A stretch of DNA of 64,000 bases from the NCBI RefSeq assembly GCF_002891295.1, contig NZ_LGUI01000001.1, forward strand, positions 248,001-312,000, in the 5' to 3' direction. Both the position numbers and the translations under genes were made by a program. Within the stretch, counting starts at the first letter, position 1. Every line of letters starts with the position of its first letter. This DNA is from Streptomyces eurocidicus (lineage in GTDB: Bacteria > Actinomycetota > Actinomycetes > Streptomycetales > Streptomycetaceae). Positions 47,206-64,000 of this stretch are shown in pieces. The notes below the pieces were generated by a model. It searched no databases, was not told the origin of the DNA, and was given only the letters and a program-made list of their open reading frames with translations.

Positions 47206-47215
47206 ACTTCGCCGT

Positions 47216-47973: not shown

Positions 47974-48040
47974 GTTGCGTGTGCGCCTTTCGGAGGCCCG
48001 GCTGTCGGGCCCGGCCATCGGACCCCGGTATCGGCCCCGG

Positions 48041-48535: not shown

Positions 48536-48609
48536 ACGTTCCCTTCCGGCCGGGTCCGCACATTCGGCGTTTCGGATCGGTCCCGACCCGGATCCGGGCA
48601 TCGGTCCGG

Positions 48610-48663
48610 TTAACCTCGGCGAAACGAATGGGTCATGCTTGAGAAATCCCGTCTCTCTAGGGT
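48610..48663 (+). promoter_or_regulatory. GlnR operator and promoter of glnA
   Basis: TTAAC-n6-GAAAC-n6-GTCAT-n6-GAAAT at 48610-48647 fits the two-tandem-site GlnR box of Streptomyces (gTnAC-n6-GaAAc, 11-base half-period). TAGGGT at 48658-48663 is a good -10, placing transcription about 90 bases before the glnA start. GlnR would activate glnA under nitrogen limitation. Confidence 0.8.
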
Positions 48664-48756
48664 CGGCGTCAGCGCGCCACACTGCATATGAACCCGCATA
48701 TGGACTGCGCCACCGAAACAACCCCGACCGCGCACGGCCGGGCTAGGAGGAGTTGG

Positions 48757-50166
48757 ATGTTCCAGAACGGCGACGACGCCAAGAAGTTCATCAAGGACGA
48801 GGACGTCAAGTTCGTCGATGTCCGCTTCTGCGACCTGCCTGGCGTGATGCAGCACTTCACGATCCCGGCGGCGGCGTTCGACCCGGCCGAGGAGCTCGCG
48901 TTCGACGGTTCGTCGATCCGCGGCTTCCAGGCCATCCACGAGTCCGACATGGCCCTGCGCGCCGATGTGAGCACCGCCCGGGTGGACCCTTTCCGCCGGG
49001 ACAAGACGCTCAACATCAATTTCTTCATCCACGACCCGATCACGGGCGAGCAGTACAGCCGTGACCCGCGCAACATCGCGAAGAAGGCCGAGGCGTACCT
49101 CGCCTCCACCGGCATCGCGGACACCGCGTACTTCGGCCCCGAGGCCGAGTTCTACGTCTTCGACAACGTCCGCTTCAACACCGCGGCGAACGAGTCCTTC
49201 TACCACATCGACTCCGAGGCCGGCGCCTGGAACACCGGTGCGGTGGAGAACAACCGCGGTTACAAGGTCCGCTACAAGGGCGGTTACTTCCCGGCCCCGC
49301 CGGTCGACCACTTCGCCGACCTGCGCGCGGAGATCTCCCTGGAGCTGGACGCGGCCGGCCTCCAGGTCGAGCGCCAGCACCACGAGGTCGGCACGGCCGG
49401 CCAGGCGGAGATCAACTACAAGTTCAACACGCTGCTCGCCGCGGCCGACGACCTGATGCTGTTCAAGTACATCGTCAAGAACGTCGCCTGGCGCAACGGC
49501 AAGACCGCGACCTTCATGCCGAAGCCGATCTTCGGCGACAACGGCTCGGGCATGCACGTCCACCAGTCGCTGTGGAGCAACGGCGAGCCCCTCTTCTACG
49601 ACGAGCAGGGCTACGCGGGCCTCTCGGACACCGCCCGCTACTACATCGGCGGCATCCTCAAGCACGCCCCGTCGCTGCTGGCCTTCACCAACCCGACGGT
49701 GAACTCCTACCACCGCCTGGTCCCCGGCTTCGAGGCCCCGGTCAACCTGGTCTACTCCCAGCGCAACCGCTCCGCCGCGATGCGCATCCCGATCACGGGC
49801 TCCAACCCGAAGGCGAAGCGCGTCGAGTTCCGCGCCCCGGACCCGTCCTCGAACCCGTACCTCGCCTTCTCGGCCCTCCTCCTGGCCGGCCTCGACGGCG
49901 TGAAGAACAAGATCGAGCCCGCCGAGCCGATCGACAAGGACCTCTACGAGCTCGCCCCCGACGAGCACGCGAGCGTCCCCCAGGTCCCGACCTCCCTCCC
50001 GGCCGTCCTCGAGGCCCTCGAGGCCGACAACGAGTACCTCCAGGCCGGCGGCGTCTTCACGTCCGACCTGATCGAGACCTGGATCGACTACAAGCGCACG
50101 CAGGAGATCGCCCCGATCCAGCTGCGCCCGCACCCGCACGAGTTCGAGATGTACTTCGACATCTAA
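48757..50166 (+). CDS. glnA: Glutamine synthetase, type I
   Basis: 469-aa dodecameric enzyme that makes glutamine from glutamate, ammonia and ATP. The N-terminal [12 protein letters not shown], substrate/metal motifs [17 protein letters not shown] and the ATP-site segment [18 protein letters not shown] are intact. The adenylylation Tyr lies in [11 protein letters not shown], so post-translational control by GlnE is expected. The ATG at 48757 follows AGGAGG. Transcriptional control by GlnR is predicted from the upstream box. Confidence 0.97.
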
Positions 50167-50486
50167 GAGCTGGCGCCTGGCGACCTGGGCGTACGTCTGA
50201 AAACCAGCTGTGACCTGCGGAAACTCTTCTCGTGAGTTCTCGTGGGTCACAGCTGTTTTCCGCCCCCTTGTACACCGCGTGTGCACCGGCCGGCTGCCTG
50301 ACCGAACGTCCCGCTCAGTGTCATGGGCCGACACCGGATCAACCGGCCGGGCTGCCGTGAGCGGGCGAGGCACGGCCACTCGGCACGCAAGTTGCATGCC
50401 AGCGTTCAAGGGATGTGCCCCCCATCAGGACGGCTCCTCTGGGAGGATGGGCGTCGTTTACAAGTAGCGGATCACATGGGGGCTAC
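50167..50486. other. Boundary intergenic region after glnA
   Basis: 320 bases. The left part holds the glnA hairpin; the right part turns AT-richer and leads into the STAND module. I saw no tRNA or convincing attachment site. Confidence 0.45.
50199..50260 (+). terminator. Long imperfect hairpin after glnA
   Basis: GAAAACCAGCTGTGACC (50199-50215) pairs with GGTCACAGCTGTTTTC (50245-50260), with one bulged G. The loop of 29 bases contains CTTCTCGTGAG and TTCTCGTGGG repeats. Probably the glnA terminator. Its position at the edge of the accessory segment is noted. Confidence 0.6.
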
Positions 50487-50906
50487 GTGGAACCGATATC
50501 AACCAGCGTTCTGTTGGCTCTCGCTGGCGGCGCCGGCGGCGAGGTCGGCCGAGAGATGTTCACCCGACTAGTCGCCCTCGTACGACGCCCGTTCCGGTCC
50601 TCTGAGGAAGCCGACGTCGTCATCACAGGTGAGGCCGAGCTCGAAGCCCTCCGTCAGTCCCCTGCCGACCCGCAGCTCGCTCAGGCGCTGGTTGCTGCCC
50701 TCGCCGAGCGTGCCGCACGCGATGCTGATTTCCATAGCCGGCTACATGCCTGGGAGAAGCAGGCCCGACAAGCGTGCACCGATCCGAGCGATGTCAGCAA
50801 CAGCATCAGCGGTGGCACGCAACATGGCCCGGTCGTCCAAGGTCGGGACATGTACAGCTTCTCCTTCTCCTCATCAGCTGCGCAGACGGATCAACGCGAG
50901 GGATGA
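50487..50906 (+). CDS. Small partner protein of STAND ATPase
   Basis: 139-aa protein. It starts with a hydrophobic Gly/Ala helix (VEPISTSVLLALAGGAGGEVG), then a helical, Ala/Glu/Arg-rich middle (EAELEALRQSPADPQLAQAL). It ends NSISGGTQHGPVVQGRDMYSF, a tail motif I recall from many actinobacterial proteins encoded beside NB-ARC/TPR genes. The GTG at 50487 has GGGGG upstream. Its stop overlaps the start of the STAND gene by 4 bases, so the two are made together. The shared V-x-QGRD motif suggests the two proteins bind the same partner or each other. Confidence 0.75.
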   Translation: MEPISTSVLLALAGGAGGEVGREMFTRLVALVRRPFRSSEEADVVITGEAELEALRQSPADPQLAQALVAALAERAARDADFHSRLHAWEKQARQACTDPSDVSNSISGGTQHGPVVQGRDMYSFSFSSSAAQTDQREG

Positions 50907-53641
50907 GTAGTTTGGAGCGCAAGCCACACACGCCCGACAATACTGTGACCAATGTAGTTTCTGACGGGCTGTTCCTCAATGCGGTTATTCAGGGACGCGA
51001 TATTACCGTCCACCTACCACGCGAGATCAGTCCGGCTTTAGCAGGGCTACCTCCCTGCTCCCCGTCCTTTTCTGGACGCGAGGAGCAGCTGCACGAGTTG
51101 ACGCGCGGCTTGGCGCCGGACCGAAGGGCACTCCCACAACTCATTCTGGGGCTCCCCGGAGTCGGAAAGACCGAAATTGCGCTGCAAGTAGCCACTCGCG
51201 CACAGCGCGATCTGGGATGGTTTACTGGCGGCGTACTGTTTACAGACATGCAAGGGTACGACGAAACCCGACACGTCACCGCTGAGCAATCCTTATCGAG
51301 CCTCCTTAGAGCTCTAGCTATTCCTCCCGAGCACATCCCCTACGGGCTGGAAGAGAGGTCGAGACTATTCCGCACCACGCTAGCAGCATATGCAAAACGT
51401 GGATGCCGAATACTTCTAGTGGTCGACAATGCGTCGTCAGCTGATCAGGTACAGCCACTACTCCCAAGTGATGCGGTTAATTCGATTCTGATCACCTCAC
51501 GCGATAATCTAGACCTCAGCGCTCGCCGACACAGCCTTGAGATCTTATCGACAACAGCATCGATCAGCCTCCTACAAAATGTTCTCACGCACACAAATGG
51601 CGTCGAGGATGTTCGAGTGAAGGAGGACCTCGGCTCTGCGGAGGAAATCGCTGACCTCTGTGGCAACCTCCCGATAGCCCTGCAGATCTGCGGCGCGCTC
51701 CTGGCTGATTTCCCCAGCCGATCACTGGCCTCGATGAAGCAAGCCCTTTCTCAGGCCCACACACGGCTCGGAATCCTTGAGCGCGGCACAAGATCGGTCA
51801 CGGCCGCATTTGATATTTCCTATCGGAGGCTCACCAAAGATCAGGCCCGCCTCTTCCGTCTAATACCAATCAATCCTGGGGCAGACATTTCGAGCAGTGC
51901 TGCGGCTCAGCTGGCCGGGATCGAAGAGTCAGCTGCTGATCGATTGCTTGAAGATCTAGCGAGGATGCACCTAGTCGAACCGGGAGATACCTGGGGCAGG
52001 TGGCGGCTCCACAACTTGATTCGCCTATATGCCGACAGTCTAAGTAGAGAGTGTCACGTTGACGACCGACGTGACCTCGCATTTGGACGACTCTTGGATT
52101 ATTATGTCCACGGTGCGCACGCCGCATCCTCGCATCTGACGCCTAATCTCACTCCTTCTCGCTGGTTCATGGGCCAGAGAGATGCACTGAGATGGCTTGA
52201 CTCGGAGCGCTCCAACCTGATCCTAGCGGTGGGGCTAGCCATAAAGACTGGAGAATACGAGGCATCGTGCGTACTCGCAAATGAACTTGCCACCTATCTG
52301 CAGCAATTCCATCACGCTGACGACTTCCTCGCGGTATCCTACGCGGCCACGAAAGCCGCCAACATGTCCGGGAATAAGACTCTGGAAGATCAAGCGATTA
52401 GTAATACCAAAAAGGCGTTGACGCAACTCAAATCACTCGAAGACGCTATTAAAGGCTTCACCACCGCGTCATCGATATTCAGCGAATCCAACGACCTGCA
52501 GTACGAGGCATCTACGCTAAGCTCAGTCGGCCACGCAATGAGCTTGACCGGCAACTTCGAGGAAGCGATTACCCACCTTACCACTTCAGCTGAACTGTAC
52601 CGCAAATTACGGCAACCAGGCCTAGAAGGACTAGCGCTCGCCAGCCTCGGAGAGGTCTTGGCTTCAGCCGGAAAGCCAGGAAAAGCAGTTGATGCATACT
52701 GCGATTCCTTGGAACTGCTCCAGCAAGCGGGTGACCTCCACGGCGTGGGTTTAGTTCTTGGGAACCTCGGCCTCACTCGACAACAAATGGACCAACCAAC
52801 CGAGGCTCTTCGGGCATTCAAGTCAGCCCTCGCAATATTTCAAGAGAGTGGCTCCAGAGCCGAAGAAGGAAAAGTCCTAAATAGCCTTGGCCTGACGCTC
52901 CAGACCCTAGGAGAATCCCGCGATGCCATTGACTGCCATTCACGCGCAATCTCAATCGCACGTGACGTGCGAGACCACGACCTAGAAGGTTCCGCTCTAG
53001 TAGACCTAGGCATCTATCTCCGATCAATTTCCCGGCTTGCGGAAGCAGCGGATGCGTTCGCTGATGCCGCCCGGGCTTTCGCTAATGTGGGCGACAACCA
53101 ACGTAAAGCAAGTGCCTTGCAAGCCGAAGGTGTCACCTTTACTTACTTGGGGCGCTATCAGGAGGCCGTGGACGCTTACTCGAAGGCTGAGTACGCCTTC
53201 CGGATAATTGGCGACGGCGCCGGAGAAGGGATGTCACTCGCCAACCGCGGTGCCGCGCTTCGGTCGTGGGGACGCTTAAGGGAATCCATTGAGGTATTGA
53301 CGGCTGCGGTCGATGTCTTGAGCCAGGCGGGCGGCAAAACACTTGCGTCCCCAGCCACCCTGCAGCTTGGTGGATCCCTGGCAGCTGCAGGCCGTAGCGC
53401 AGAGGCAGTGCAGGTATTCGCACGAGCCGCTGAGGAGTTTGCGAGAGCTGGGGATATGTTGGAGGAAGCCAAGGCCCTGCTGGCCCGCGGGATAGCCCTC
53501 CGCAGCTTGGGGCGTTTCAGTGAAGCTGCTACAGACCTCACCCACGCCATTGCAGTATTCCGTGAAGAGGGTGATAGGGAGCGTGCAACTATGGCGCGCC
53601 TGCATCTCGACGAAATTCACAAGGGGTTCTCTACCCCTTGA
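50903..53641 (+). CDS. NB-ARC/AP-ATPase STAND protein with TPR sensor
   Basis: 912-aa STAND NTPase. The N-terminal tail (NTVTNVVSDGLFLNAVIQGRD) shares the QGRD motif with the upstream partner. The NB-ARC domain (about residues 55-330) has Walker A LILGLPGVGKTEIALQVA, Walker B CRILLVVDNASS, a sensor SILITSRDNLDL and the GLPLA-like motif LCGNLPIALQICGA. After a winged-helix region, at least eight TPR repeats run from about 500 to 905 (e.g. GLEGLALASLGEVLASAGKP). Codons are visibly AT-richer than elsewhere in the window, suggesting recent transfer. Such proteins act in antiphage defence or as regulators. No separate effector domain is fused. Confidence 0.88.
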   Translation: MSSLERKPHTPDNTVTNVVSDGLFLNAVIQGRDITVHLPREISPALAGLPPCSPSFSGREEQLHELTRGLAPDRRALPQLILGLPGVGKTEIALQVATRAQRDLGWFTGGVLFTDMQGYDETRHVTAEQSLSSLLRALAIPPEHIPYGLEERSRLFRTTLAAYAKRGCRILLVVDNASSADQVQPLLPSDAVNSILITSRDNLDLSARRHSLEILSTTASISLLQNVLTHTNGVEDVRVKEDLGSAEEIADLCGNLPIALQICGALLADFPSRSLASMKQALSQAHTRLGILERGTRSVTAAFDISYRRLTKDQARLFRLIPINPGADISSSAAAQLAGIEESAADRLLEDLARMHLVEPGDTWGRWRLHNLIRLYADSLSRECHVDDRRDLAFGRLLDYYVHGAHAASSHLTPNLTPSRWFMGQRDALRWLDSERSNLILAVGLAIKTGEYEASCVLANELATYLQQFHHADDFLAVSYAATKAANMSGNKTLEDQAISNTKKALTQLKSLEDAIKGFTTASSIFSESNDLQYEASTLSSVGHAMSLTGNFEEAITHLTTSAELYRKLRQPGLEGLALASLGEVLASAGKPGKAVDAYCDSLELLQQAGDLHGVGLVLGNLGLTRQQMDQPTEALRAFKSALAIFQESGSRAEEGKVLNSLGLTLQTLGESRDAIDCHSRAISIARDVRDHDLEGSALVDLGIYLRSISRLAEAADAFADAARAFANVGDNQRKASALQAEGVTFTYLGRYQEAVDAYSKAEYAFRIIGDGAGEGMSLANRGAALRSWGRLRESIEVLTAAVDVLSQAGGKTLASPATLQLGGSLAAAGRSAEAVQVFARAAEEFARAGDMLEEAKALLARGIALRSLGRFSEAATDLTHAIAVFREEGDRERATMARLHLDEIHKGFSTP

Positions 53642-53681
53642 TAGGAGAGAACGCGCCCCTGGCGTGGGTACGACCGTGAGC

Positions 53682-53721
53682 AGTGACCGTCCTTGACACC
53701 ACTCTCGATCCAACGGTCACT
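53682..53721. terminator. Hairpin between STAND and NUDIX genes
   Basis: 9-bp stem AGTGACCGT (53682-53690) / ACGGTCACT (53713-53721) with a 22-base loop, in the convergent gap. Confidence 0.5.
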
Positions 53722-53722
53722 A

Positions 53723-54253
53723 TCACCAGCCGTCGAGCGATACTTCCGGGCCGCCTCCAAAGTAACGGTGGAGAGCGCTGGCGGTGGTGCCCACGAACTC
53801 CTCGGGGATAGTGTCCGCGTCGACCCAGCGGACCTGAGCGTGCTTGCGAGGTTCGCGGTTTTCGGGTTCGCCGATCCATTCGTGTGCGGTGAAGACGACG
53901 GTGAGGAAGCCGTTGGGGGCTTCAACGCCCCAGGCGCCATGGATGATGTGGGCGACCTTCAGCGCCTCGGGCTTCACGGTCAGACCGGTCTCCTCATGTA
54001 GCTCGCGGATAGCCGTCTCGGTAATCGGTTCGCCGGGCTCGCTCTTGCCGACCGGGAGGTCCCACAGGCCCTGGGCGAACTTGGCGTTCTCGCTGCGCTG
54101 GAGGAGGACCACGCGGTTGGTGGCCTTGTCGTGGACGATGACGGCGGCGACCAGCAGGGTCATGGATTCCAGCGCGGGCTTGAGCGCCTTGGGCTGGTCA
54201 TCGGTTGTCGGCTGAGCCACGGGGGTCCCTTCGTCGGCCGGGTTGGTGGGCAT
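53723..54253 (-). CDS. NUDIX hydrolase
   Basis: 176-aa NDP-X pyrophosphohydrolase. The NUDIX box is complete (GKSEPGEPITETAIRELHEETGL, G-x5-E-x7-REUxEExGU with U = Leu). The N-terminal 25 residues are disordered. It ends at 53723 and starts 2 bases before the stop of the HTH-TPR gene, so the two are co-transcribed. This suggests that a nucleotide-derived signal or a damaged nucleotide is part of the same pathway. Substrate unknown. Confidence 0.9.
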   Translation of the reverse strand: MPTNPADEGTPVAQPTTDDQPKALKPALESMTLLVAAVIVHDKATNRVVLLQRSENAKFAQGLWDLPVGKSEPGEPITETAIRELHEETGLTVKPEALKVAHIIHGAWGVEAPNGFLTVVFTAHEWIGEPENREPRKHAQVRWVDADTIPEEFVGTTASALHRYFGGGPEVSLDGW

Positions 54254-54254
54254 G

Positions 54255-55610
54255 TTAGGCGAGCGCCTCCCGGGCGCGGCGGGCGAGTTCGGCGGCGCCG
54301 GGCACTTTGCGCCGTTGGTACACCGCCAGGGTTGATCGGATGGAGGTGATCGCCTTGCGGGTGCGGTCGGAAGTCATGCCCTCCATCAGCGTGAGGGCCT
54401 GGTTCCAAGCGGAGACGGCCTCATCGGCGCGGGCCTGGGCGGCGAGGCTGTCGCCGAGGTCGGCGTAGGTGAGGGCGTGGACGCGCTTGTATTTCTCGGG
54501 GTCCCAGCGGACGAGCGCGTCGCGGTGTTGCTGTTCGGTGCCGACGTGATCGGCGAGGTCGGTGAGCGTACGGGCCGTGTGGCTGGCGACGGTGCCGGCG
54601 GCCGGCCCGCTGACGAGGGAGAAGCTGGGCTGGGGGCAGTCGTCGCGGAGCAGGGCGTCCTCGGCTGCGAGCAGGGCGCGGGCCGCTGCGGGCCGCTCGT
54701 CGACTGCGGCGAAGGCGCGGGCGTGGGTGATGTGGAGCAGTGCCTCGGTCTGGCCGTCGACGTGGCCGAGGCCGCGGCTGAGGGCTCCTTCGACGAGGTC
54801 GACGCAGTGGTGGGGCTGCTTGAGGCTGAGGGCCTGGTGGGCGAGGGCGCGCATCATCCAGGCGGCGTGGCCGTGCGGGTCGGCTTCGCAGGCGAGCCGG
54901 TAGCCGACCTGGTAGTAGCGCTGGGCGGCGCCTTCCTGGCCGAGGTCGTGGTGCTTCCAGCCCGCGAGGTAGGCCAGCTCGGCGACGGCGCCGAAGGCGG
55001 CGCGGCGTAAGGCGTCGGAGGGGAAGCGGGCGCGGAGCATGGGGGCGGCGGTGTCGGCAAGGTAGGCGGTGACGGTGGTGAGCCCGTGGCCACCGCCCAG
55101 GCGTTCGTCGGCCGCGCTGAACGCGGCGGTGATCTGGTGGACCACCTCGACGTCCTCCGCCCCGACCAGGGACCTACCGGTGCGTGCGCGAAGCATGCGG
55201 GCTGCGGCCTCGTGGTCGTAGGCCAGGGGCATCGCCACCCCCGCGGTGGTGAAGGCGGCCACGGCCAGGAAGCGGCGTCGCTCGACGTCGGCGCGGCCGA
55301 GGTCGGTCGCCGTGACGACGGGATCGGGGTCGTCGGGGACAGTGGCTTCGGGGTCGCGCAGGCCGATCTCGGTGAGGGTGATGGTGCGGCCGACCCTGCG
55401 TGAGAGGGCTTCCGCCAGGTAGTGGCCGGTCTGACCAGTGGGCTGCCGGGTGCCGTTCACCCAGTGGGAGATCGCCGACTTGTTGGTTTGGATGATCTCG
55501 CCGTTCTCCGCGGCGATCCGGCGCACGCCCTTGGCCAGTGCTTCGTACGTGCAACCGATCGTGTCGATGACCTCGCGCAGACGGATATTGGGTCTGCTGG
55601 TCGCCGCCAT
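54255..55610 (-). CDS. HTH-TPR regulator with internal RRRFL motif
   Basis: 451-aa regulator. The N-terminal HTH (RLREVIDTIGCTYEALAKGVRRIA; TNKSAISHWVNGTRQPTGQTG) resembles Lsr2-independent XRE-type DNA binders. Next comes a twin-Arg-like segment ERRRFLAVAAFTTAGVAMPL (about 107-126), which is internal and so not a signal peptide. The C-terminal TPR-like helices include GGGHGLTTVTAYLADTAAPMLR and LAYLAGWKHHDLGQEGAAQRYY. It is clearly related to the regulator at 43-44.6 kb. It is divergent from the operon at 55.9 kb and probably controls it. Confidence 0.87.
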   Translation of the reverse strand: MAATSRPNIRLREVIDTIGCTYEALAKGVRRIAAENGEIIQTNKSAISHWVNGTRQPTGQTGHYLAEALSRRVGRTITLTEIGLRDPEATVPDDPDPVVTATDLGRADVERRRFLAVAAFTTAGVAMPLAYDHEAAARMLRARTGRSLVGAEDVEVVHQITAAFSAADERLGGGHGLTTVTAYLADTAAPMLRARFPSDALRRAAFGAVAELAYLAGWKHHDLGQEGAAQRYYQVGYRLACEADPHGHAAWMMRALAHQALSLKQPHHCVDLVEGALSRGLGHVDGQTEALLHITHARAFAAVDERPAAARALLAAEDALLRDDCPQPSFSLVSGPAAGTVASHTARTLTDLADHVGTEQQHRDALVRWDPEKYKRVHALTYADLGDSLAAQARADEAVSAWNQALTLMEGMTSDRTRKAITSIRSTLAVYQRRKVPGAAELARRAREALA

Positions 55611-55866
55611 GACCTCCTCCGTCCTGGGGCTGTAAACCGCGTATACCGCTTGGCCTCGCCTTCACCGTACCCACTGTGCGTGACGGCCGGTTCACTTAAT
55701 CGCAGCCGCCCGGAACTGCCCGAACGCATCCTGGCTCTCCCCTTGGTCCGGCAGCTCCCTGCCCGACTGACTGGCGGCCTCTGAAGCCGTAGCGGGCCCC
55801 GGCGCCCACCAGTTGTCTCCTCGCCGTGCCGGCGGCCCGCTGCATCCATTCCCGAAGGAGACGACG

Positions 55867-56052
55867 GTGACGTACAAGTCCCGTACGACCAGCGACAGGA
55901 AGCCCCGTGGCAACTGGCTGGGCGTGACACTCGGCTGGATCTGGGCTCTCGGCACGCTCGCGGCGGACAGCAGCCTGGCCGCCATCGTGGGCCATGACCT
56001 GACCCACCGTGTGGATGGTGGCGTGGCGGTGTCGCGGCCGGAGGGCCACTGA
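55867..56052 (+). CDS. Small hydrophobic peptide (possible precursor or membrane partner)
   Basis: 61 aa. The GTG at 55867 has GAAGGAG at ideal spacing. The N-terminus is basic (VTYKSRTTSDRKPRGN), the middle hydrophobic (WLGVTLGWIWALGTLAA, one membrane span in length), and the C-terminus polar (GHDLTHRVDGGVAVSRPEGH). The next gene starts 2 bases after the stop, so it is the first gene of the operon. It has no Cys and a single Ser-Arg-Pro near the end. It may be a membrane anchor or regulatory peptide; a modified-peptide precursor is a speculative alternative. Confidence 0.6.
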   Translation: MTYKSRTTSDRKPRGNWLGVTLGWIWALGTLAADSSLAAIVGHDLTHRVDGGVAVSRPEGH

Positions 56053-56053
56053 G

Positions 56054-57220
56054 ATGGCAGGAGCATCGAGCGCCGCCCCGGCGGCCGCGGACGTCTTCGC
56101 CTACGCGGACCGGCAGATCGAGCAGGCGGCGGCCAGGCTGTGGCCGGGGGCCGTGGTGCGGCTCGGGGTGCACACGCCGAGCGTGACGGCCTACGTCCGT
56201 CGAGTTCAGGTGGATGAGCGGGCCCTGTTCGCCAAGGTCTCGCTGCTGGGCCTGTCGCTGGTGTCGGTGCTGCGAGGTACGGCCGGGGACTGGCCGCAGG
56301 TCCGGGCCGCCCAGGCGGCCTACCAGGGCTCGCCGGGCACTCTGCTGGAGCGGGAAGCCCGGGGGCTGGACATCCTGCGCGAGGAGGCCGGAGTACTGGC
56401 CTGCCGCGTCGCCGGGCTCCAGAGCGGGGTGCTGTTCACCGAGCCAGTGACGGGCCCGACGCTGGCCGACCTGCTGGCCAAGGAACCCCACCGCAGCGGT
56501 GAGCTGATGACCCGCGTCCTGGTGGAGCTGACGGGTCTCCAACGGCCCGCGGTCGCCAGGTCCGTGGACGAGGTGGCGATCGTCGAACGGGGCATTGGCC
56601 CGACCTTCCACCGCAAGTTCAACGGCATCAGCGGCCCGACCTACCTGCGTAAAGCGGGGCAGACGGGTGAAGTGCTGGCGGGCGTGGTGGGCAGACTGCG
56701 ACGGCTGCGACCGGTTCCGGCGGCCGGACGGCGGCCGGTGCTCTACGGCGACCTCAAGCCGGACCACGCGGTCTTCTCCGGTGGCCCCGAGAGCCGTCCA
56801 GTCTTCCTCGACCCGGGCCTTGCCTGCGGCCGGCCCCAGACGGATGCGGCGAAGCTGGTCTCGCGGACGGTGCTGAACCTGGTCGCCTCCCCTCCGGACC
56901 GGGCAGCGGCCAAAGCGGTTGTTGGCGGCATCGAGGTCTTCGCCGACGCGATGACCGCCGACCTCGGGCCCGACGAGCGAGCCGCATGGATCAAGCACCT
57001 GGTGGTGTTGTGGCTGATGGACACCACCAACATCCTCAGCACCTACCTGACCTGCCCGGCCGACCTGCCCTTGCCCGAGCACGCCGTCAAAATCACCCAA
57101 CAGGCGATGTCGGTGTGCACCCTGCTCGACCGCACCACCGTGAACCTGCTCGCCGGGACGGACCCGCGGGCGGTGTGGCGGCTCGCCCTGGCCGACGTGG
57201 CGAAGGCGGCCGACCGGTGA
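56054..57220 (+). CDS. APH/choline-kinase-like phosphotransferase
   Basis: 388-aa protein-kinase-fold phosphotransferase. The N-lobe contains the probable ATP Lys in ERALFAKVSLLG. The catalytic loop reads VLYGDLKPDHAVF: Asp is present, but the usual His is Tyr and the Asn is His. The metal-binding segment is FLDPGLACG (DPG instead of DFG/DWE). These changes are internally consistent with an active but unusual small-molecule kinase. The ATG is 2 bases after the small peptide, and its stop overlaps the next gene (GTGA). The substrate is not known. Confidence 0.75.
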   Translation: MAGASSAAPAAADVFAYADRQIEQAAARLWPGAVVRLGVHTPSVTAYVRRVQVDERALFAKVSLLGLSLVSVLRGTAGDWPQVRAAQAAYQGSPGTLLEREARGLDILREEAGVLACRVAGLQSGVLFTEPVTGPTLADLLAKEPHRSGELMTRVLVELTGLQRPAVARSVDEVAIVERGIGPTFHRKFNGISGPTYLRKAGQTGEVLAGVVGRLRRLRPVPAAGRRPVLYGDLKPDHAVFSGGPESRPVFLDPGLACGRPQTDAAKLVSRTVLNLVASPPDRAAAKAVVGGIEVFADAMTADLGPDERAAWIKHLVVLWLMDTTNILSTYLTCPADLPLPEHAVKITQQAMSVCTLLDRTTVNLLAGTDPRAVWRLALADVAKAADR

Positions 57221-59256
57221 CGCCGCCGCCGGTCGGCGCGGTCGGGGTGATCGGTGCCGGGGCCGTCGGCCAGAGCGTGGCCATGCTGCTGGCGGCCGGC
57301 GGCTGGTGCGAGTCCGTCCGCGTCGTCTCCCGCACCGGGCTCTCGGCCCAGGCCCTGGTGACCGATCTGGAGGACATGTGCCAGGTCACCGCCTCCTCCG
57401 TCCGGGCGGTCCACGTCACCGACGCCGGACAGCTCGCCTCCTGCGAAGCGGTGGTCGTCTGCCCACGGGGCGATTTCATCAACACTGCCCACACCGACAT
57501 CCGCATGGCCGGCCTGAACCCCAACGCCCCCGTCATCGCCGGCCTCGCGCGGAAGCTGGCCCATTACCAGGGACTCGTGGTCATGGTGACCAACCCCGTC
57601 GACGTCCTCACCCGCCTGTTCGCCGAGGTCTCCGGCTGCCCCCGCGTGTACGGGGTCGGCTCGAACACCGACACCGCCCGCTACCGCCTCACTCTTGCCC
57701 GCCTCCTGGACGTGTCCCCACAAACCGTGGACGGTCACGTGATCGGCGAGCACGGCGACCGGGCCGTGGTGTGCGCGTCGGCCACCCATGTCGGCGGCCT
57801 GCCCGTGCCGGTGCCCTTGCGGCAGGTCCGCGACGAGCTGACCGACCGTCCTCGACGGATCAACGCAGGACTGGGCCGTACCCGCTGCGGTCCAGCCGGG
57901 GCGGTGATCGCTGCCCTCCGCGCGGGCCTGGGCCTGGACGACGCGGTGACGGAGCTGTGCGTCAACCACGAGGGGAGGTGGAGGGGAATTCCGTTGCGCT
58001 TCATCGCCGGGACCCCGACCGTGTGCCTCCCCCGACTGGACGCCGCCGAGGCCCGTCAGCTGATAGCCGCCGACGCCAAGCTCCGTGATGCCTACGAGCC
58101 CCTGGCCCGCCTGTACGTCCCCGCGCAACCCTGGCAGAAGGAGAAAACCGCAGTGCCTCAGACCGCTGTCCGTATCGCCACGGCCGCCCAGGCCGCGACC
58201 GTCACCAGCAACAGCCCGGTGGTCACAGACTGGGCCCTTCGCTACTTCGGCCCCTGGTGGAATGCCATCAGCACCGCCCCGGACGCCGACGCAGCAGTGA
58301 TCGCTGACGTGAGCTCCAACCGGGTCACCGAGATCGCCCAGCGCGTGGGCGACCACTCCCACGAGGGGACCGTCTACGCGAACTCGCGCATGCTCGTCGA
58401 CCGGGACAACGACGGCACCGTGGTCGCCTCCCAGCCCGACGACAAGCTCGTCTACCAGGCCGAGCCCGGCGGGCCCCTGCGGATCTACGGGTGCGAAGAC
58501 GTTCCTGTCGCCCTGGCCGCCGCACGGCTCGCTCGCGAGGTCGTCCGCGGGCAACTCCTGGCGGACGGCTGGTCGATCCTGCACGCCTCCGCCGTCGTCC
58601 GTGACGGGCAGACCGTGCTGACCCTGGGCGACAAGGGCGCCGGGAAGACCACCACCGCCCTTCTCCTGGCCCGTGCCGGCTGGCATCTGCTGGCCAACGA
58701 CCGCGTCTTCATCCGCCGCGAGGACGACCGGCTGCGGGTTCTGCCCTGGCCCTCGGCCGCCGCCATTGGCCTGGGGCTCTTGGACGCCCTCGACTGGTAC
58801 GAGACCGTCCGCGAACGTCTCCGCAACGGCGAACAGCTCCACCCCACCCAGCACCAGAAAGTCACCGACGCCCTCCACTCCGGCAGCCGCACACCCCTGT
58901 GGAACGAGTTCGGCAAGGAGCTCAAGCCCCAGTTCTTCCCCGACCAGCTTCACTCCTGGCTCGGCCTGACCCTGGCCACCGAAGGGCACGCCACCTGCGT
59001 CCTCTTCCCCCGAATCACTCCGGATGCCGAGCTTGCTCTTCTCGACGAGAATCGCGCCGTGGCAGCCGGCGACTTCTTCACCGCGGACACGGAGGACCGC
59101 TACCCCGACATCTTCGGCCTCCTCCCTGCCGACCTCCCTGGAGTTGAGCCTCTGCTCGAACGTCTCGGCGAGCTTCCCTGGCACTCCCTGGCCTTCGGAC
59201 ACGACGTGAAGGCGAACACCGACCTCCTCAAGCGGGTCACAGAGCCGACCGCCTGA
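57217..59256 (+). CDS. Lactate/malate-dehydrogenase-like domain fused to HPr-kinase-like domain
   Basis: 679-aa single frame. Residues 1-312 are an LDH/MDH fold: Rossmann loop GVIGAGAVGQSVAML, NAD-site VTNPVDVLTRLF, GSNTDTARYRLTLA with the catalytic-type Arg, and the proton-relay His in VIGEHGDRAVVC. The specificity loop is unlike LDH or MDH (CPRGDFINTAHTDIRMAG). Residues 313-679 are HprK-like: ILHASAVVRDGQTVLTLGDKGAGKTTTALLLA (P-loop), followed by NDRVFI. At 58136-58143 AGAAGGAG sits 9 bases before GTG 58153, exactly at the domain junction and in frame. The HprK-like part may therefore also be made alone. The GTG at 57217 overlaps the kinase stop. Confidence 0.85.
   Translation: MTPPPVGAVGVIGAGAVGQSVAMLLAAGGWCESVRVVSRTGLSAQALVTDLEDMCQVTASSVRAVHVTDAGQLASCEAVVVCPRGDFINTAHTDIRMAGLNPNAPVIAGLARKLAHYQGLVVMVTNPVDVLTRLFAEVSGCPRVYGVGSNTDTARYRLTLARLLDVSPQTVDGHVIGEHGDRAVVCASATHVGGLPVPVPLRQVRDELTDRPRRINAGLGRTRCGPAGAVIAALRAGLGLDDAVTELCVNHEGRWRGIPLRFIAGTPTVCLPRLDAAEARQLIAADAKLRDAYEPLARLYVPAQPWQKEKTAVPQTAVRIATAAQAATVTSNSPVVTDWALRYFGPWWNAISTAPDADAAVIADVSSNRVTEIAQRVGDHSHEGTVYANSRMLVDRDNDGTVVASQPDDKLVYQAEPGGPLRIYGCEDVPVALAAARLAREVVRGQLLADGWSILHASAVVRDGQTVLTLGDKGAGKTTTALLLARAGWHLLANDRVFIRREDDRLRVLPWPSAAAIGLGLLDALDWYETVRERLRNGEQLHPTQHQKVTDALHSGSRTPLWNEFGKELKPQFFPDQLHSWLGLTLATEGHATCVLFPRITPDAELALLDENRAVAAGDFFTADTEDRYPDIFGLLPADLPGVEPLLERLGELPWHSLAFGHDVKANTDLLKRVTEPTA
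58136..58155 (+). promoter_or_regulatory. Internal ribosome binding site at the domain junction
   Basis: AGAAGGAG (58136-58143), 9-base spacer, then GTG (58153-58155) in frame with the fusion. It encodes QKEKTAVPQTAV within the protein. It marks either a second translation start or the relic of a former gene boundary. Confidence 0.6.
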
Positions 59257-59261
59257 ACCAG

Positions 59262-59311
59262 CGGACATCGGTGGTGGAGGTACCGCACGGTATCTCCACC
59301 ACCGATGTCCG
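59262..59311 (+). terminator. Terminator after the HprK-like gene
   Basis: 24-bp stem CGGACATCGGTGGTGGAGGT / ATCTCCACCACCGATGTCCG (plus flanking ACCG/CGGT pairs), one mismatch, 2-base loop. It starts 6 bases after the stop. Confidence 0.9.
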
Positions 59312-59414
59312 TTATCGATGTCGCCCGCGGCCGTCGGACCTTGTGCCCACCGTTGCGGCCGTAGACCGCGGCGGCACGGTGAACATGGGCGGTATGCCGC
59401 TGACAGGGCTTCGC

Positions 59415-59810
59415 TTACGTGCTGCTGACTGCGTCTGTTCGGCTGAGTGGTGATGCGCCAGTTGAGCACTTCGGCAGGACGCTCGGCAGTGTCGAGCTCT
59501 CGGGGCGGGCGCCGACTTCGCTCAGGAGGTGGCGGAGGTTGTGGCCAGCTGTCTCGGCGCGGGCCAAGGTGGTGGTGAGGGCGACCCACGCCGGGCCGGC
59601 GAGGACGCGGTCGGCGTGGTCGGGGAGGGCCACGCGAAGGTCCTGCTCGAAACGGTTGGCGATTGTGGCGCGTGGAGTGCGGTGGGCGAGATCCGCCAGG
59701 ACGGGTTTGGCGGCTTGCTGGTAGCCCGCCTGGAGGTGGCGGAAGGCTTCCTCGGCTGCTGCCGCCTGCTGCGCGTGCCCGCATTGCTGAGGGTGGCGCC
59801 GGGGGCCCGG
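59415..59810 (-). pseudogene. Remnant of a plasmid-mobilisation-type protein
   Basis: An open minus-strand frame without a start reads QQAAAAEEAFRHLQAGYQ, then DHADRVLAGPAWVALTTTLA and RAETAGHNLRHLLSEVG, and ends at 59415. The pattern of a short helix with PAW and AEAAGHD resembles C-terminal parts of actinobacterial relaxase or mobilisation proteins as I remember them. The match is weak and from memory. The N-terminus is missing, cut at the boundary with the ABC ATPase. Confidence 0.4.
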
Positions 59811-59820
59811 TGTTTTCCCG

Positions 59821-60513
59821 TTACGGCCGGCCCACGCCCGCCATGTCGCGCGCGCGGCCGTCGCGGACGATGACCTCGCGGTCGGAGTAGGCGGCGACGC
59901 GGGCCTCGTGGGTGACGAGGACGACGGCGGCGTGGGTGTCCCGGGCCGCGGCGGTGAGGAGTTCCATCACGCGTTCGCCGTTGAGGGAGTCCAGGGCGCC
60001 GGTCGGTTCGTCGGCGAAGACGACGCGTGGGGTGGTGACGAGGGCGCGGGCGACGGCGACGCGCTGGCCCTGGCCGCCGGAGACCTCGGCGGGGCGCTTG
60101 TCGCGGGCGTCGGCCACCTCCAGGCGCTCCAGCCACTCCATGGCCCGCGCCTCGGCCTTCTTCCGTTTCAGGCCGGCCAGGCGCAGCGGCAGGGCGGTGT
60201 TCTCGACGCAGGTCAGCTCGGGGACGAGGCGGCCGAACTGGAAGACGAAGCCGAACTCCCCCCGGCGCAGCGCGCTGCGCTCGGCGTCGGACATCGCCAG
60301 CAGGTCACGGCCGTCGTAGGTGACCGAGCCGGCGTCGGGGCGCACGATGCCGGCCAGGCAGTGCAGCAGCGTCGACTTGCCGGAGCCGGAGGGGCCCATG
60401 ACGGCGACGACCTCGCCGGGGTGGACGGAGAACTCCGCGCCGTCGAGGGCGGTCGTCGGCCCGTACGCCTTGCGCAGGCCGGTGGCGGCGAGGAGGGAGC
60501 CGGCCGGGGTCAT
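59821..60513 (-). CDS. ABC transporter ATP-binding protein (MacB/LolD type)
   Basis: 230-aa ATPase. Walker A is GPSGSGKSTLLHCLAG, signature is VSGGQGQRVAVARAL, and Walker B is VVFADEPTGALDS, with the H-loop VLVTHEARVA. The Q-loop VFQFGRLVPELT and the MacB-type ALDSLNGERVM fit an FtsX-type exporter. The ATG at 60513 overlaps the PadR stop by 4 bases. The FtsX-like permease expected next on this strand is absent; the remnant at 59.4-59.8 kb is there instead. Confidence 0.92.
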   Translation of the reverse strand: MTPAGSLLAATGLRKAYGPTTALDGAEFSVHPGEVVAVMGPSGSGKSTLLHCLAGIVRPDAGSVTYDGRDLLAMSDAERSALRRGEFGFVFQFGRLVPELTCVENTALPLRLAGLKRKKAEARAMEWLERLEVADARDKRPAEVSGGQGQRVAVARALVTTPRVVFADEPTGALDSLNGERVMELLTAAARDTHAAVVLVTHEARVAAYSDREVIVRDGRARDMAGVGRP

Positions 60514-61034
60514 GGGCGCACCGTCTTCCCGAGCTGGTCGAGGCGGGCGGCCGTGAGTTCCAGCCAGCGCAGATCCGCTTCGAGGTGGAAGAGGGCGTGG
60601 TCGCAGATGAGCTGGTCGGCGAGGTCGCCGGAGCGCTTGCGCTCGGTGAGGCCGCGCATCAGCCGCAGGTGCTCGGAGCGCTGGGCGTCCAGCAGCCCGG
60701 CCGCGTCGCGGCCCGTGAGCAGGGCGAGGACGACCTTGGTGTAGAGGGTCGACTGGAGGTACGGCTCGGGCTTCTCGGGCTGGACCAGCCACCGTTCGAC
60801 GTCCGTGATCCCGGCGTCGGTGATGGCGTAGCGCTTACGGTCCGGGCCTTCGCCCTGCTCGATGCCCTCGACCTCGACCAGGCCGTTCTTCAGCAGTCGC
60901 GACATGGTCGAGTAGACCTGCCCGTAGTGCAGCGGGCGGTCCTGGCCGAAGCGGGCGTCGAAGGCGCGCTTGAGGTCGTAGCCGTGGCGCGGGCCGGTCT
61001 CCAGGAGGCCGAGCAGGGTGTGTCCGATTGACAT
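60510..61034 (-). CDS. PadR-family transcriptional regulator
   Basis: 174-aa regulator with the PadR winged helix (HTLLGLLETGPRHGYDLKRAFD; YGQVYSTMSRLLKNGLVEVEG; KRYAITDAG) and a C-terminal dimerisation helix (VLALLTGRDAAGLLDAQRSEH). It is translationally coupled to the ABC ATPase and very likely represses this operon, de-repressing on binding a substrate of the exporter. Confidence 0.93.
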   Translation of the reverse strand: MSIGHTLLGLLETGPRHGYDLKRAFDARFGQDRPLHYGQVYSTMSRLLKNGLVEVEGIEQGEGPDRKRYAITDAGITDVERWLVQPEKPEPYLQSTLYTKVVLALLTGRDAAGLLDAQRSEHLRLMRGLTERKRSGDLADQLICDHALFHLEADLRWLELTAARLDQLGKTVRP

Positions 61035-61084
61035 GCGGGCAGTCTACAGAGGGGGTATACACGGGATGTATAGGTGAGCGGGCA

Positions 61085-61192
61085 CCGAGGGCCTCGCCAC
61101 CCTCCCTCAGCCGAGGGGCCTCGCCGCCTTCCACTCAGCCGAGGGACCTCGCCGTCCTCCGCTCAGCCGAGCGGCACGCCGCCTCCCCTCAG
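61085..61192. repeat. Four tandem 26-28-base repeats derived from the HAD gene end
   Basis: Units CCGAGG(G)CCTCGCC..CTCAG at 61085-61110, 61111-61138, 61139-61166 and 61167-61192. Each contains CTCAGCCGAG, which is the stop-codon end of the HAD gene (CTCGGCTGAG on its strand). They look like repeated duplications of that gene's 3' end. Confidence 0.75.
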
Positions 61193-61815
61193 CCGAGCGG
61201 CATCCCGAAGATCTCCTCCAGCCCCGCGACCGTCTCCGCCGGCGTCGTGTCCAGGAGTGCCGTCATGCCCAGGGCCCGGGCCGGGTCCAGGTTGCGGGGG
61301 GAGTCATCGACGAACACACAGGTCTCCGCCGGGAGTTCCAGGAGCTCCAGGGCCGTCCCGTAGAGCGCGGGGTCGGGTTTGCGGACGCCGTGCAGGTCGG
61401 AGAGGACCACCGCGTCGAAGCGGATCTCCAGGTCGTAGCCCCGGTACGGGTCGTGGGGCGTGCGGCCGGTGCTGTTGGAGAGGAGGGCCGTCCTGACGCC
61501 CGCGCGGCGGGCGGCGTCGACGGCGGCCAGGAGCGCGGGCTCGGGGCGGAGACCGGCCAGGACGCGGCCGAGCAGGCCCGTGGCGTCGACGCCGAGCAGG
61601 GGCGCCGTGCAGGTGTTCCACTCGGTCTGGGTGATGCGGCCGAGCTCCAGGTCCGCGTAGAGCGCGCGCCCCGCGGGGTCCTTCGTGACGACGTTCGTGA
61701 AGGCGTCGGGCGCCAGCCCCTCGCGCCGGCAGAACGCCTCGGTGGCCTCGCCGACCGGGGTCGTGAGCACCCCGCCGAAATCCACCAGCAGGCCCTGGGG
61801 CCGGGTGCGGGACAT
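61189..61815 (-). CDS. HAD-family hydrolase
   Basis: 208-aa phosphatase-like HAD-IA protein. Motif I is LLVDFGGVLTTPV (second Asp replaced by Gly, as in some HAD-IA groups), motif II LLSNSTG, motif III VRKPDPALY, and motif IV CVFVDDSPRNL. The ATG at 61815 follows AGGAGG. Phosphatase activity is uncertain because of the motif I change. No functional link to neighbours is seen. Confidence 0.9.
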   Translation of the reverse strand: MSRTRPQGLLVDFGGVLTTPVGEATEAFCRREGLAPDAFTNVVTKDPAGRALYADLELGRITQTEWNTCTAPLLGVDATGLLGRVLAGLRPEPALLAAVDAARRAGVRTALLSNSTGRTPHDPYRGYDLEIRFDAVVLSDLHGVRKPDPALYGTALELLELPAETCVFVDDSPRNLDPARALGMTALLDTTPAETVAGLEEIFGMPLG

Positions 61816-62106
61816 GGACGCCTCCTGCGGGACCCTGTGAAAAGACGACGGGCCGGGATCTCTTCCGCCGCCTTCGGTGAATGATGCGGCAGAGCGCCGC
61901 ACCTCCTCCCCGCATTTCCGAATTACCCATGGTTACAAACCGAAGTCGACCGCCTCCGTAGGGCAATTGATCACCTGAAAGCTATACGGACGTAACCGCG
62001 GCTGATTTGATGTGGACGGCTCTTTTCCCCATCCGAATCATCCGGACCATCCGAATCAGGGGTCACCCCCGCATCAGGGCTGCCCCCGTCCCCACAGGGA
62101 GATGCA

Positions 62107-63102
62107 GTGCCGATCGTCCAGCGCGCCGGAATCGCCTCCGCGCTCACCGCCGCCCTCGCGGCAGTCACCCTCACCGCCGTCGCACCTCAGCCGGCGCGGG
62201 CGGCGACAGCGTCCGGCGCCGCCGTACCGGAGTTGAAGGTGCTCACGTACAACACCTTCCTCATGAGCAAGAATCTCTACCCGAATTGGGGCCAGGACCA
62301 CCGCGCCAAGGAGATACCGGCCGCCGGATTCTTCCGTGGCAACGATGTCGTCGTTCTCCAGGAGGCGTTCGACAACGAGGCGTCGGACGCGCTGAAGGCC
62401 GGCGCCGCCGGGCAGTACCCGCACCAGACGCCGGTCGTGGGCCGGAGCAAGGACGGCTGGGACGCCACGAGCGGGAATTACTCCACCACCACGCCGGAGG
62501 ACGGCGGCGTGACGATCCTCAGCAAGTGGCCGATCGTCCGCAAGGAGCAGGTGATCTTCGCGGACGCGTGCGGCTCGGACTGGTGGTCCAACAAGGGCTT
62601 CGCCTATGTGGTGCTGGACGTCAACGGCACCAAGGTCCATCTGGTCGGCACGCACACGCAGTCCACCGACAGCGGCTGCAAGGCGGGCGAGGCGGTGGCG
62701 GACCGCGCCAAGCAGTTCCGGCAGATCGGCGCCTTCCTCGACGCCAAGAAGATCCCGGCGGGCGAGCAGGTCATGCTGGCGGGCGACCTGAACGTGGACT
62801 CCCACAGTGCCGAGTACCCCTCGATGCTCGCCAACGCCGGCCTGGAGCCCGCGAGCACCCGCGACGGGCACCCGTACTCCTTCGACACCAAGGAGAACTC
62901 CATCGCCGCCTACCGCTACCCGACGGACGGCCGCGAGGACCTCGACTACGTCCTCCACCGCAAGGGCCACGCCCGCCCCGCGACCTGGCGGAACACCGTG
63001 GTCAAGGAGGAGTCCGCGCCCTGGACCGTGTCCAGCTGGGGCAAGGACTACACGTACACCGACCTCTCGGACCACTACCCGGTGACCGCCGGTAAGAGCT
63101 GA
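62107..63102 (+). CDS. sph: Secreted sphingomyelin phosphodiesterase (endonuclease/exonuclease/phosphatase fold)
   Basis: 331-aa secreted enzyme. The signal peptide is MPIVQRAGIASALTAALAAV..ARAATA with an Ala-x-Ala cleavage site. The EEP domain (about 40-331) has the Asn of LTYNTFLMSKNLYP, metal Glu in VVLQEAFDNEAS, AGDLNVDSHSAEYP (Asp, Asn) and the terminal catalytic SDHYPVTA. This matches bacterial neutral sphingomyelinases and the Streptomyces Mg-dependent type. GTG at 62107 with GGGAG upstream. Confidence 0.92.
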   Translation: MPIVQRAGIASALTAALAAVTLTAVAPQPARAATASGAAVPELKVLTYNTFLMSKNLYPNWGQDHRAKEIPAAGFFRGNDVVVLQEAFDNEASDALKAGAAGQYPHQTPVVGRSKDGWDATSGNYSTTTPEDGGVTILSKWPIVRKEQVIFADACGSDWWSNKGFAYVVLDVNGTKVHLVGTHTQSTDSGCKAGEAVADRAKQFRQIGAFLDAKKIPAGEQVMLAGDLNVDSHSAEYPSMLANAGLEPASTRDGHPYSFDTKENSIAAYRYPTDGREDLDYVLHRKGHARPATWRNTVVKEESAPWTVSSWGKDYTYTDLSDHYPVTAGKS

Positions 63103-63121
63103 TCAACAGCGCGGGCGCTTA

Positions 63122-63150
63122 CGGTGGGCGGGCGCGGAGCCCGCCCACCG
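63122..63150 (+). terminator. Terminator after the sphingomyelinase gene
   Basis: Perfect 12-bp stem CGGTGGGCGGGC / GCCCGCCCACCG with a 5-base loop, 20 bases past the stop. Confidence 0.8.
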
Positions 63151-63244
63151 GACGCCCGGACCGCACCCCGCCGAGCACCAAGGTTCCGTATCGAGGCACC
63201 GGCCGACTCTGCTGTTCCGTCCCAGGTCATGCTTCAATAGGCGC

Positions 63245-63373
63245 ATGGCCAGCTACCAGAACACCGCGACGGGTCGCACCGACCTTGAGCCCTTCTGGCC
63301 TTCCCGTCAGCATGACGACTTCGACCGAGTGTGTTGCCGCGCGACTTCCGCGCAGGCCCACTCCCCCCGCTGA
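63245..63373 (+). CDS. Possible 42-aa small protein or leader
   Basis: ATG GCC AGC TAC frame of 42 codons (MASYQNTATGRTDLEPFWPS, then a Cys-Cys pair in DRVCCRATS). There is no Shine-Dalgarno; TTCAAT lies about 6 bases before the ATG, which would suit a leaderless transcript. It lies about 100 bases before the winged-helix gene. Support is weak. Confidence 0.3.
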   Translation: MASYQNTATGRTDLEPFWPSRQHDDFDRVCCRATSAQAHSPR

Positions 63374-63473
63374 CCCCACGTCGAAGTCAGCCGCCGGTCA
63401 CCGCACCCGGCCAACGGCCCCGCGCAACGCACGTCCATTCGACGGTCCCTCGCGCGAAAGAGCTGAGCTCTCC

Positions 63474-64000
63474 ATGACGAACCTCCGCACCCTGACCGTG
63501 CCCGCCCCGGCCCCCCAGGAGGCGCCGGCCGGTTCCCCCGCTCCGCACCCCGCCCACCGCCACCGACTCCGCGCCGTGGCCCCGGACGAGGTGCCGCCCG
63601 TCGCCGAGCTGCTGCACTCCGGCGCCGCGACATGGCTGCCCGCGCCGCAGCACACGGTCCCGACGCTGCCGGGCCAGCCGCCGATGATCGGCTATCTGGT
63701 GCTCGTACCGGCCGAGCAGCCGGCCCCCGAGCCCGCCGCCACCGAGGGGGACGCCCTGGTGAGCATCGACCCCGAGCAGCGCACCGCCCGGGTCGCGGGC
63801 CGGCTGCTGGACCTGACGTACCTGGAGTTCGAGCTCCTCGCGCACCTGGTCGCGCACCCCAACCGGGTGCACACCCGCGACCAGCTCGTACAGACCGTCT
63901 GGGGCTACGGTCACGTGGGCGACGGCCGCACCGTGGACGTCCATGTGGCCCGGCTCCGCCGCAAGATGGGCGCCGAGTACCGCGCCTCGATCGTCACCGT
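63474..64000 (+). CDS. Winged-helix (OmpR/PhoB-type) DNA-binding protein, partial
   Basis: Starts MTNLRTLTVPAPAPQEAPAG and runs past the right edge (175 residues present). The N-terminal 95 residues are Pro/Ala-rich with no receiver Asp. The OmpR-type winged helix begins about residue 105 (RVAGRLLDLTYLEFELLAHLV; DQLVQTVWGYGHVGDGRTVDVHVARLRRKM), with the recognition helix intact. It resembles Streptomyces winged-helix proteins without a phospho-receiver. The C-terminus is missing. Confidence 0.87.
   Translation, partial: MTNLRTLTVPAPAPQEAPAGSPAPHPAHRHRLRAVAPDEVPPVAELLHSGAATWLPAPQHTVPTLPGQPPMIGYLVLVPAEQPAPEPAATEGDALVSIDPEQRTARVAGRLLDLTYLEFELLAHLVAHPNRVHTRDQLVQTVWGYGHVGDGRTVDVHVARLRRKMGAEYRASIVT

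Follow-up and report, generated by a model that had tools for sequence, protein, structure and literature searches.

The gene examined here lies in a 64,000-nucleotide stretch of Streptomyces eurocidicus (contig NZ_LGUI01000001.1, positions 248,001 to 312,000; hereafter the window). Its single open frame, at 57217..59256, joins a dehydrogenase-like half to a kinase-like half. The closest described systems are the L-lactate and malate dehydrogenases (LDH and MDH; PF00056/PF02866) for the first half, and for the second the HPr kinase/phosphorylases (PF07475; structures 1jb1 and 1ko7), the HprK-related kinases A and B (TIGR04352, TIGR04355) and the ATP-dependent phosphoenolpyruvate (PEP) carboxykinases (PEPCK; 1j3b, E. 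coli Pck). For the arrangement of the two halves, the reference is the pair of genes that are translationally coupled by an overlapping ATGA or GTGA.

When compared with these systems, the first half resembles the LDH/MDH family in its fold, as judged from sequence, in the catalytic His, Asp and Arg and in the GEHGD motif, whereas it differs in an altered substrate loop (R84, F87, N89), in S38-R39 and in having a kinase-like fusion partner. By sequence, the second half is nearest to HPr kinase and kinases A and B, with which its P-loop and the next motif align. Unlike these, however, it carries Asn for the first Asp, remains below every cut-off and has another N-terminal part, and no role for HPr is implied. 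Identity to ATP-dependent PEPCK is 13%, with no counterpart of the first ~96 residues, and the Pfam model for that family is not reached. Most of the separate relatives are exactly such coupled overlapping pairs, whereas in the window the stop is bypassed by the first frame, which continues into the second gene, and the second start signal stays. Our literature searches returned no publication on this fusion or operon among the matches listed.

The fused gene and its separate relatives

The features of the gene are:

57217..59256, + strand: fused gene of 679 aa, an LDH/MDH-like dehydrogenase half followed by an HprK/PEPCK-superfamily kinase-like half (open frame, Pfam, ten distinct in-frame loci including the window)
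57217..58152, + strand: dehydrogenase half, 312 codons (57 aligned sequences)
58136..58143, + strand: AGAAGGAG, putative internal Shine-Dalgarno (SD) sequence of the kinase, 9 bases before the GTG at 58153
58153..58155, + strand: putative internal GTG start of the kinase, in the dehydrogenase frame (GTG in 11 of the 11 loci compared from the window's branch)
58153..59256, + strand: kinase-like half, 367 aa, with P-loop GDKGAGKTT, H144, N182-D183 and DRYPD (85 sequences; AlphaFold, Foldseek, VIA-align)

The frame runs through 679 codons with no stop, and its GTG start codon overlaps the stop of an upstream gene for an aminoglycoside phosphotransferase (APH)-like protein (GTGA, 57217-57220). Pfam models fall on the first half above their gathering scores (Ldh_1_N with 48 bits against a cut-off of 27, Ldh_1_C with 25.9 against 22.6). 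An earlier note on this DNA had described one frame that joins LDH/MDH-like and kinase-like domains, with an SD sequence, a 9-base spacer and an in-frame GTG (58153) at the junction, and both statements are confirmed, the SD sequence starting at 58136. In the whole window, both strands taken together, AGAAGGAG occurs just 8 times and AAGGAG-N5-10-RTG (R being A or G) 9 times; given so few copies of the former in 64 kb, chance would not be expected to put one right where the two domains join.

To place this gene among its relatives, we used a genus sample, searched with the whole fused protein (E up to 1e-10), a family sample, searched with the kinase half (E up to 1e-30), and a scan of GTDB contigs; the window genome is counted in both samples. 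Some match to the fused protein was found in 31 of 199 genus genomes, which should be read with the knowledge that several of these matches cover one half only and some are weak. The kinase half is present in 28 of 297 family genomes, and the scan of GTDB contigs yielded 66 loci. After repeats had been merged, the 118 rows obtained came down to 94 distinct kinase loci. The dehydrogenase is in frame with the kinase in 10 of these (including the window) and separate from it in 66, and 18 have no LDH-like dehydrogenase nearby. The homologues, which the earlier note had wanted sorted into fused and separate, are thus of both kinds, and the suspicion that this strain alone had been fused by error fails, since nine other distinct loci are in frame. 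One of these is on a complete chromosome (NZ_CP031455.1, L086; S. olivoreticuli ATCC 31159). We therefore rule out that a sequencing or assembly error took out a stop in the window strain and regard its probability as negligible; a single-base indel would have been enough for such an error, and nothing else was found in its favor.

The phases and overlaps of the separate pairs, with kinase starts placed by homology, suggest how the merger came about. In 54 of the 66 pairs the genes overlap by 1-10 bases, in 8 they are 0-35 bases apart, and 4 pairs are of other kinds. One relative phase, which differs from the in-frame phase, is common to 62 pairs; L088, one of the 54 overlapping pairs, is in the kinase's own phase. 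For pairs with a usable start, the sequence there is ATGA in 31, GTGA in 18, GTGC in 12 and ATGC in 2. At the same position, 5 of the 10 in-frame loci keep GTGA at the kinase start, that is, the former overlapping stop, which the shifted dehydrogenase frame does not read. Because of this unread TGA, the merger looks like the result of a frame-shifting indel that bypassed the stop. That an overlapping pair fused in this branch by way of a bypassed stop is well supported, and we hold it to be highly probable. The earlier suggestion of a gene pair whose stop was lost is supported in this more exact form, the stop having been bypassed by a change of frame.

The kinase tree has 109 rows, for 85 of the 94 loci plus 24 fused database proteins of full length, and places the window in a branch of 29 rows, 28 of them fused. 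This is not a frequency, as 18 of the rows are database proteins added for being fused and the filter dropped L092. Many species names of this main branch are those of the former Streptoverticillium. No fewer than 5 changes are needed to explain the fused label on the tree, as compared with a mean of 29.4 for shuffled labels, and none of 500 shuffles gave a number as low. Database proteins place the dehydrogenase-kinase fusion in other lineages too: the fused rows beyond the main branch are P0031/P0032, P0034 and P0025-P0027, which are known from proteins and not from DNA.

DNA is at hand for 12 branch loci, 10 of which are in frame (including the window). When the sequences are aligned directly, L032 and L034 are in frame as in the window, and L033, which has one extra base, is out of frame. 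In the in-frame locus of S. griseocarneus 132 (L089), most of the dehydrogenase is gone, with only about its last 86 codons left, and the kinase frame is intact, together with the SD sequence and GTG. In S. caatingaensis, three different contigs (L084, L090 and L092) carry all or some of the operon, one copy being frame-shifted. Five database proteins (P0029, P0035, P0036, P0037 and P0038) show an apparent frame change inside the kinase half, between the pre-P-loop region and the PWP motif, which may be decay or error.

The start signal at the seam

The core AAGGAG is found in 10 of the 11 branch loci compared, L082 having AAAGAG. V and M are the residues that start codons can encode. Among the branch's database proteins that were displayed, all have V at the seam save for P0022, which has L. 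Eight fused database proteins outside the main branch have V or M at the expected seam (six) or no more than 3 residues away from it (P0034, P0037). Among the kinase genes compared, an SD-like tetramer precedes 81 of 85 kinase starts, as compared with 115 of 696 (16.5%) sampled RTG codons. We also compared codon columns in nine sequences, with L089 left out owing to its broken dehydrogenase. Of 654 columns, 4 end in A in all nine, and one of these is the codon just before the GTG. At the level of codons, conservation of the putative internal start is suggestive only. All in all, the internal start signal of the kinase is kept and is probably used. The earlier idea that the locus could also give a free kinase domain gains from this a conserved start that could produce it; the production of free kinase itself we only infer.

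The two enzyme-like halves

The dehydrogenase alignment contains 57 of the 76 loci with this gene, after removal of L116 and L141, which have stops, and of 17 incomplete matches. R96, D152, R155 and H179, which we take to be the catalytic Arg, Asp, Arg and His on the basis of residue roles in LDH/MDH, are invariant in all 57 sequences. R84, F87 and N89 of the substrate loop are equally invariant. The earlier statement that this loop is altered and GEHGD kept is supported, and a new substrate for the dehydrogenase is likely. By the rule on loop and cofactor, an acidic residue at the S38-R39 position selects NAD. S38 (53 of 57 sequences) and R39 (45 of 57) replace this acidic residue of the NAD enzymes, and from the two residues we predict that the enzyme likely prefers NADP(H). 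The nearest solved structures are L-lactate and malate dehydrogenases; the features of an L-lactate or malate dehydrogenase proper, namely an acidic NAD-selecting residue and a standard substrate loop, are absent, and the NCBIfam equivalog cut-offs are missed (TIGR01771, 115 against 303.55 bits; TIGR01763, 68.8 against 351.85 bits).

For the kinase half, PF07475 (HPr kinase C-terminal) scores 21.8 bits, below its cut-off of 33.3, and the models of HprK-related kinases B and A likewise match below cut-off; 55 of 58 family members match PF07475 at E up to 5. The P-loop residues and D183 are conserved in 82-84 of 85 sequences (K165 and D183 in 84 each), and N182, also in 84 of 85, stands where the HprK motif has its first Asp. 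Both Asp residues of the HPr kinase motif are called highly conserved in PMC11204831. The HPr kinase combination of a P-loop Lys with paired Asp is thus incomplete here, Asn taking the place of the first Asp. The AlphaFold model of this half (mean predicted local distance difference test score, pLDDT, of 94) can be aligned with ATP-dependent PEPCK along its whole length; the Z-score ties with that of HprK over the C-terminal part. The Pfam model PEPCK_ATP matched 1 of 58 members, with an E of 0.05, and assignment to PEPCK by sequence profile was rejected, as no PEPCK chain is among the 28 PDB sequences listed by the profile search. PF27840, annotated on many of the kinase proteins, had no match in our copy of Pfam. 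As judged from sequence and model, the kinase half belongs to the HprK/PEPCK superfamily and has the full set of marks of neither family. The label HprK-like in the earlier note can therefore stand at superfamily level, and should not be extended to HPr kinase proper, given the sub-threshold PF07475 score, N182 and the PEPCK-aligning model.

Operon, partners and competing explanations

Around the fused gene lie:

55867..56052, + strand: small open reading frame (ORF) of 61 codons with a hydrophobic middle and AAGGAG at 55855, directly before the APH-like gene
56054..57220, + strand: protein of the APH/choline-kinase/methylthioribose-kinase fold (29-sequence alignment, AlphaFold-type model, Foldseek)
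59260..59313, + strand: 25-bp hairpin directly 3' of the fused gene (-50.3 kcal/mol, z -7.5)
54255..55610, - strand: divergent NsdA-family tetratricopeptide repeat (TPR) regulator (NF053720, 360.5 bits against a cut-off of 75)

The operon likely consists of the small ORF, the APH-like kinase gene and the fused gene, followed by the hairpin, which has no T tract, was not called by the terminator scan and is likely the transcript end. For the APH-like gene, the listed ORF opens 15 codons earlier, at 56009. We moved its likely start to the ATG at 56054 because the 61-codon ORF, with its own SD sequence, ends just upstream. The model has a pLDDT of 92.5; in the longer ORF, residues 1-19 are below 50. 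K76, E116, D248 and D268, the kinase-site Lys, Glu, Asp and Asp, are invariant in the 29 sequences, and a GDLKPxH loop appears in place of the usual Asn. In Foldseek, the model matched methylthioribose kinase, choline kinase and APH enzymes, TvaE being the second match. The protein is thus alike to this group in fold and in its invariant residues, although it scores below the PF01636 gathering score (16.2 against 23.2 bits) and no PDB chain was found by sequence search at E up to 1. A widespread small membrane protein as the fourth gene of the operon was considered and rejected, as such a protein was scored at 5 of 59 loci, as compared with 19 of 585 control genes under the same criterion; our claim is therefore restricted to the branch-specific small ORF. 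On the other side, an NsdA-like gene accompanies the operon at 30 of 78 loci. In the window, a NUDIX hydrolase and the NsdA-family regulator (53723-55610) are divergent from the operon, and upstream of the NUDIX gene lies a 955-codon ORF (50774-53641) with an NTPase-like start and, by eye, TPR-like repeats.

We consider it reasonably probable that this Streptomyces branch makes a fused two-domain enzyme along with some free kinase, and that the two would jointly reduce a 2-oxo acid and phosphorylate the resulting compound. The ancestral state would be that of most relatives examined, with dehydrogenase and kinase genes overlapping. A single small indel in the dehydrogenase tail would have bypassed the overlapping stop, so that ribosomes translating the dehydrogenase would run on into the kinase and give the fused enzyme, and the retained SD sequence and GTG would add separate kinase. 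The first half would carry out an NADPH-dependent reduction of a 2-oxo acid and the second an ATP-dependent phosphorylation of the reduced product, both being predictions from motifs, and the APH-like kinase encoded upstream would belong to this pathway as well. The fusion would keep the roughly equal supply once given by the stop-start overlap, and may be near neutral. The chemistry, reduction by NADPH followed by phosphorylation, is a guess from motifs and neighbors and should be regarded as tentative.

The loci without an LDH-like gene bear on this joint action. The surroundings of 15 of the 18 were viewed (L016, L057 and L143 were not). In one, a GpsA glycerol-3-phosphate dehydrogenase gene ends at the kinase start, and in four genomes an S-adenosylhomocysteine hydrolase (SAHH)/GFO-type dehydrogenase of about 900 residues (truncated in one genome by the end of the contig) lies 88-129 bases before the aligned kinase start. 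A kinase directly after an unrelated dehydrogenase in five other genomes suggests a dehydrogenase-kinase pair, and this recurrence beyond the LDH type is the best hint of joint action. The ~900-residue protein, at L149:6573-9281, L148, L079 and L152, has SAHH-type and GFO/IDH/MocA-type Rossmann parts. At L147:6884-9371, threonyl-tRNA synthetase-like and GpsA-like genes directly precede the kinase, which may represent a small biosynthetic cluster that includes a spare synthetase. A wider scheme, in which one hitherto undescribed HprK/PEPCK-superfamily kinase lineage takes interchangeable NAD(P)-dependent partners (LDH/MDH-, GpsA- and SAHH/GFO-like), was repeatedly fused with the LDH-like one and, by reducing and then phosphorylating, makes phosphorylated hydroxy metabolites in Streptomyces, is possible but doubtful.

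Several observations weigh against the proposed two-step enzyme with its free kinase. N182 in place of the first Asp makes phosphorylation of a hydroxyl by the HprK mechanism doubtful. Two branch loci are not in frame, namely L062 of S. albireticuli (identical in place to L033) and, among the three S. caatingaensis copies, L092. In several database proteins the dehydrogenase or the kinase half is broken or shortened. The fusion is thus dispensable, and so is the pair as a whole. At the seam, the SD sequence of L082 is weakened, the ratio of nonsynonymous to synonymous substitution rates (dN/dS) over 13 linker codons scatters between 0.15 and 0.83, and the all-GTG Val column is one of 6 such columns among 40 all-Val columns, which makes codon conservation alone a weak proof of internal initiation. 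Beside the kinase, no dehydrogenase was recognized by eye in 8 of the 15 viewed loci, and in two of the 15 an acyl-CoA dehydrogenase lies further upstream, with another gene between.

The same evidence should be considered under other explanations. The fusion may be a neutral accident in a decaying accessory operon, with no functional consequence. This would fit the scattered presence in the family and genus samples noted above, and the broken copies, such as L089 with only a dehydrogenase end and P0029, P0036 and P0038 with their frame changes in the kinase half. However, pairwise dN/dS between the window and 8 fused relatives (the L089 row was dropped) is well below 1 in both halves, at 0.20-0.35 for the dehydrogenase and 0.30-0.48 for the kinase, the active-site residues are conserved and most branch loci remain in frame; we thus find this explanation rather unlikely. 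Less likely still is a malate-to-PEP type of reaction, in which the dehydrogenase would oxidize a malate-like 2-hydroxy acid and the PEPCK-like half would decarboxylate and phosphorylate the oxo acid to an enol phosphate, as a channelled MDH-PEPCK pair.

Modification of a peptide or protein, with both kinases acting on a ribosomal peptide and the cassette serving as a tailoring module of clusters for ribosomally synthesized and post-translationally modified peptides (RiPPs), appears to us about as improbable as the malate-to-PEP reaction. It is favored by TvaE, a thioviridamide pathway protein, being the second Foldseek match of the APH-like model, and by the neighbors in other genomes. In a survey of 80 long loci, at least 2 places of which were counted twice, a radical S-adenosylmethionine (SAM) gene and a TIGR04188-type (ATP-grasp-type peptide) methyltransferase gene directly follow the kinase in 10, an ATP-grasp enzyme accompanies a TIGR04188-type methyltransferase in 2, and an FxLD methyltransferase accompanies a LanB-like gene (labeled by eye) in 3. 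Lasso-peptide papers among the literature matches listed also name HPr kinases. Nevertheless, 61 of the 80 loci, including the window, have none of the five query genes (radical SAM, the two methyltransferases, ATP-grasp and LanB-like). The radical SAM gene is found in 42 of 199 genomes, widely on its own, with only two listed places (G183:C10 and G023) adjoining the operon, and the clear homologues of the small ORF are confined to the same Streptomyces branch. Membership of the window operon in a RiPP cluster was rejected, as the five query genes had no match in window positions 45001-64000, where a precursor peptide was not searched for as such. Elsewhere, L110:12089-13030 and nine further loci form an extended five-gene set, with the radical SAM protein (having a Cys-rich C-terminal tail where read) and the TIGR04188-type methyltransferase after the kinase. 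At L078/L124 (one place) the ATP-grasp pair is upstream, at L105 an FxLD methyltransferase is 5 kb off, and at L117 a radical SAM gene is on the opposite strand.

The locus puts a stepwise gene fusion on display, with its ancestral overlap, the fossil stop that goes unread, the second start that has been kept and the strains that are back out of frame. It also points to an uncharacterized operon of two kinases and one dehydrogenase, whose kinase lineage has, in some genomes, unrelated dehydrogenases as neighbors. Should the enzymes of the operon act jointly, it would define a new pathway, whether for a phosphorylated metabolite or for a modification.

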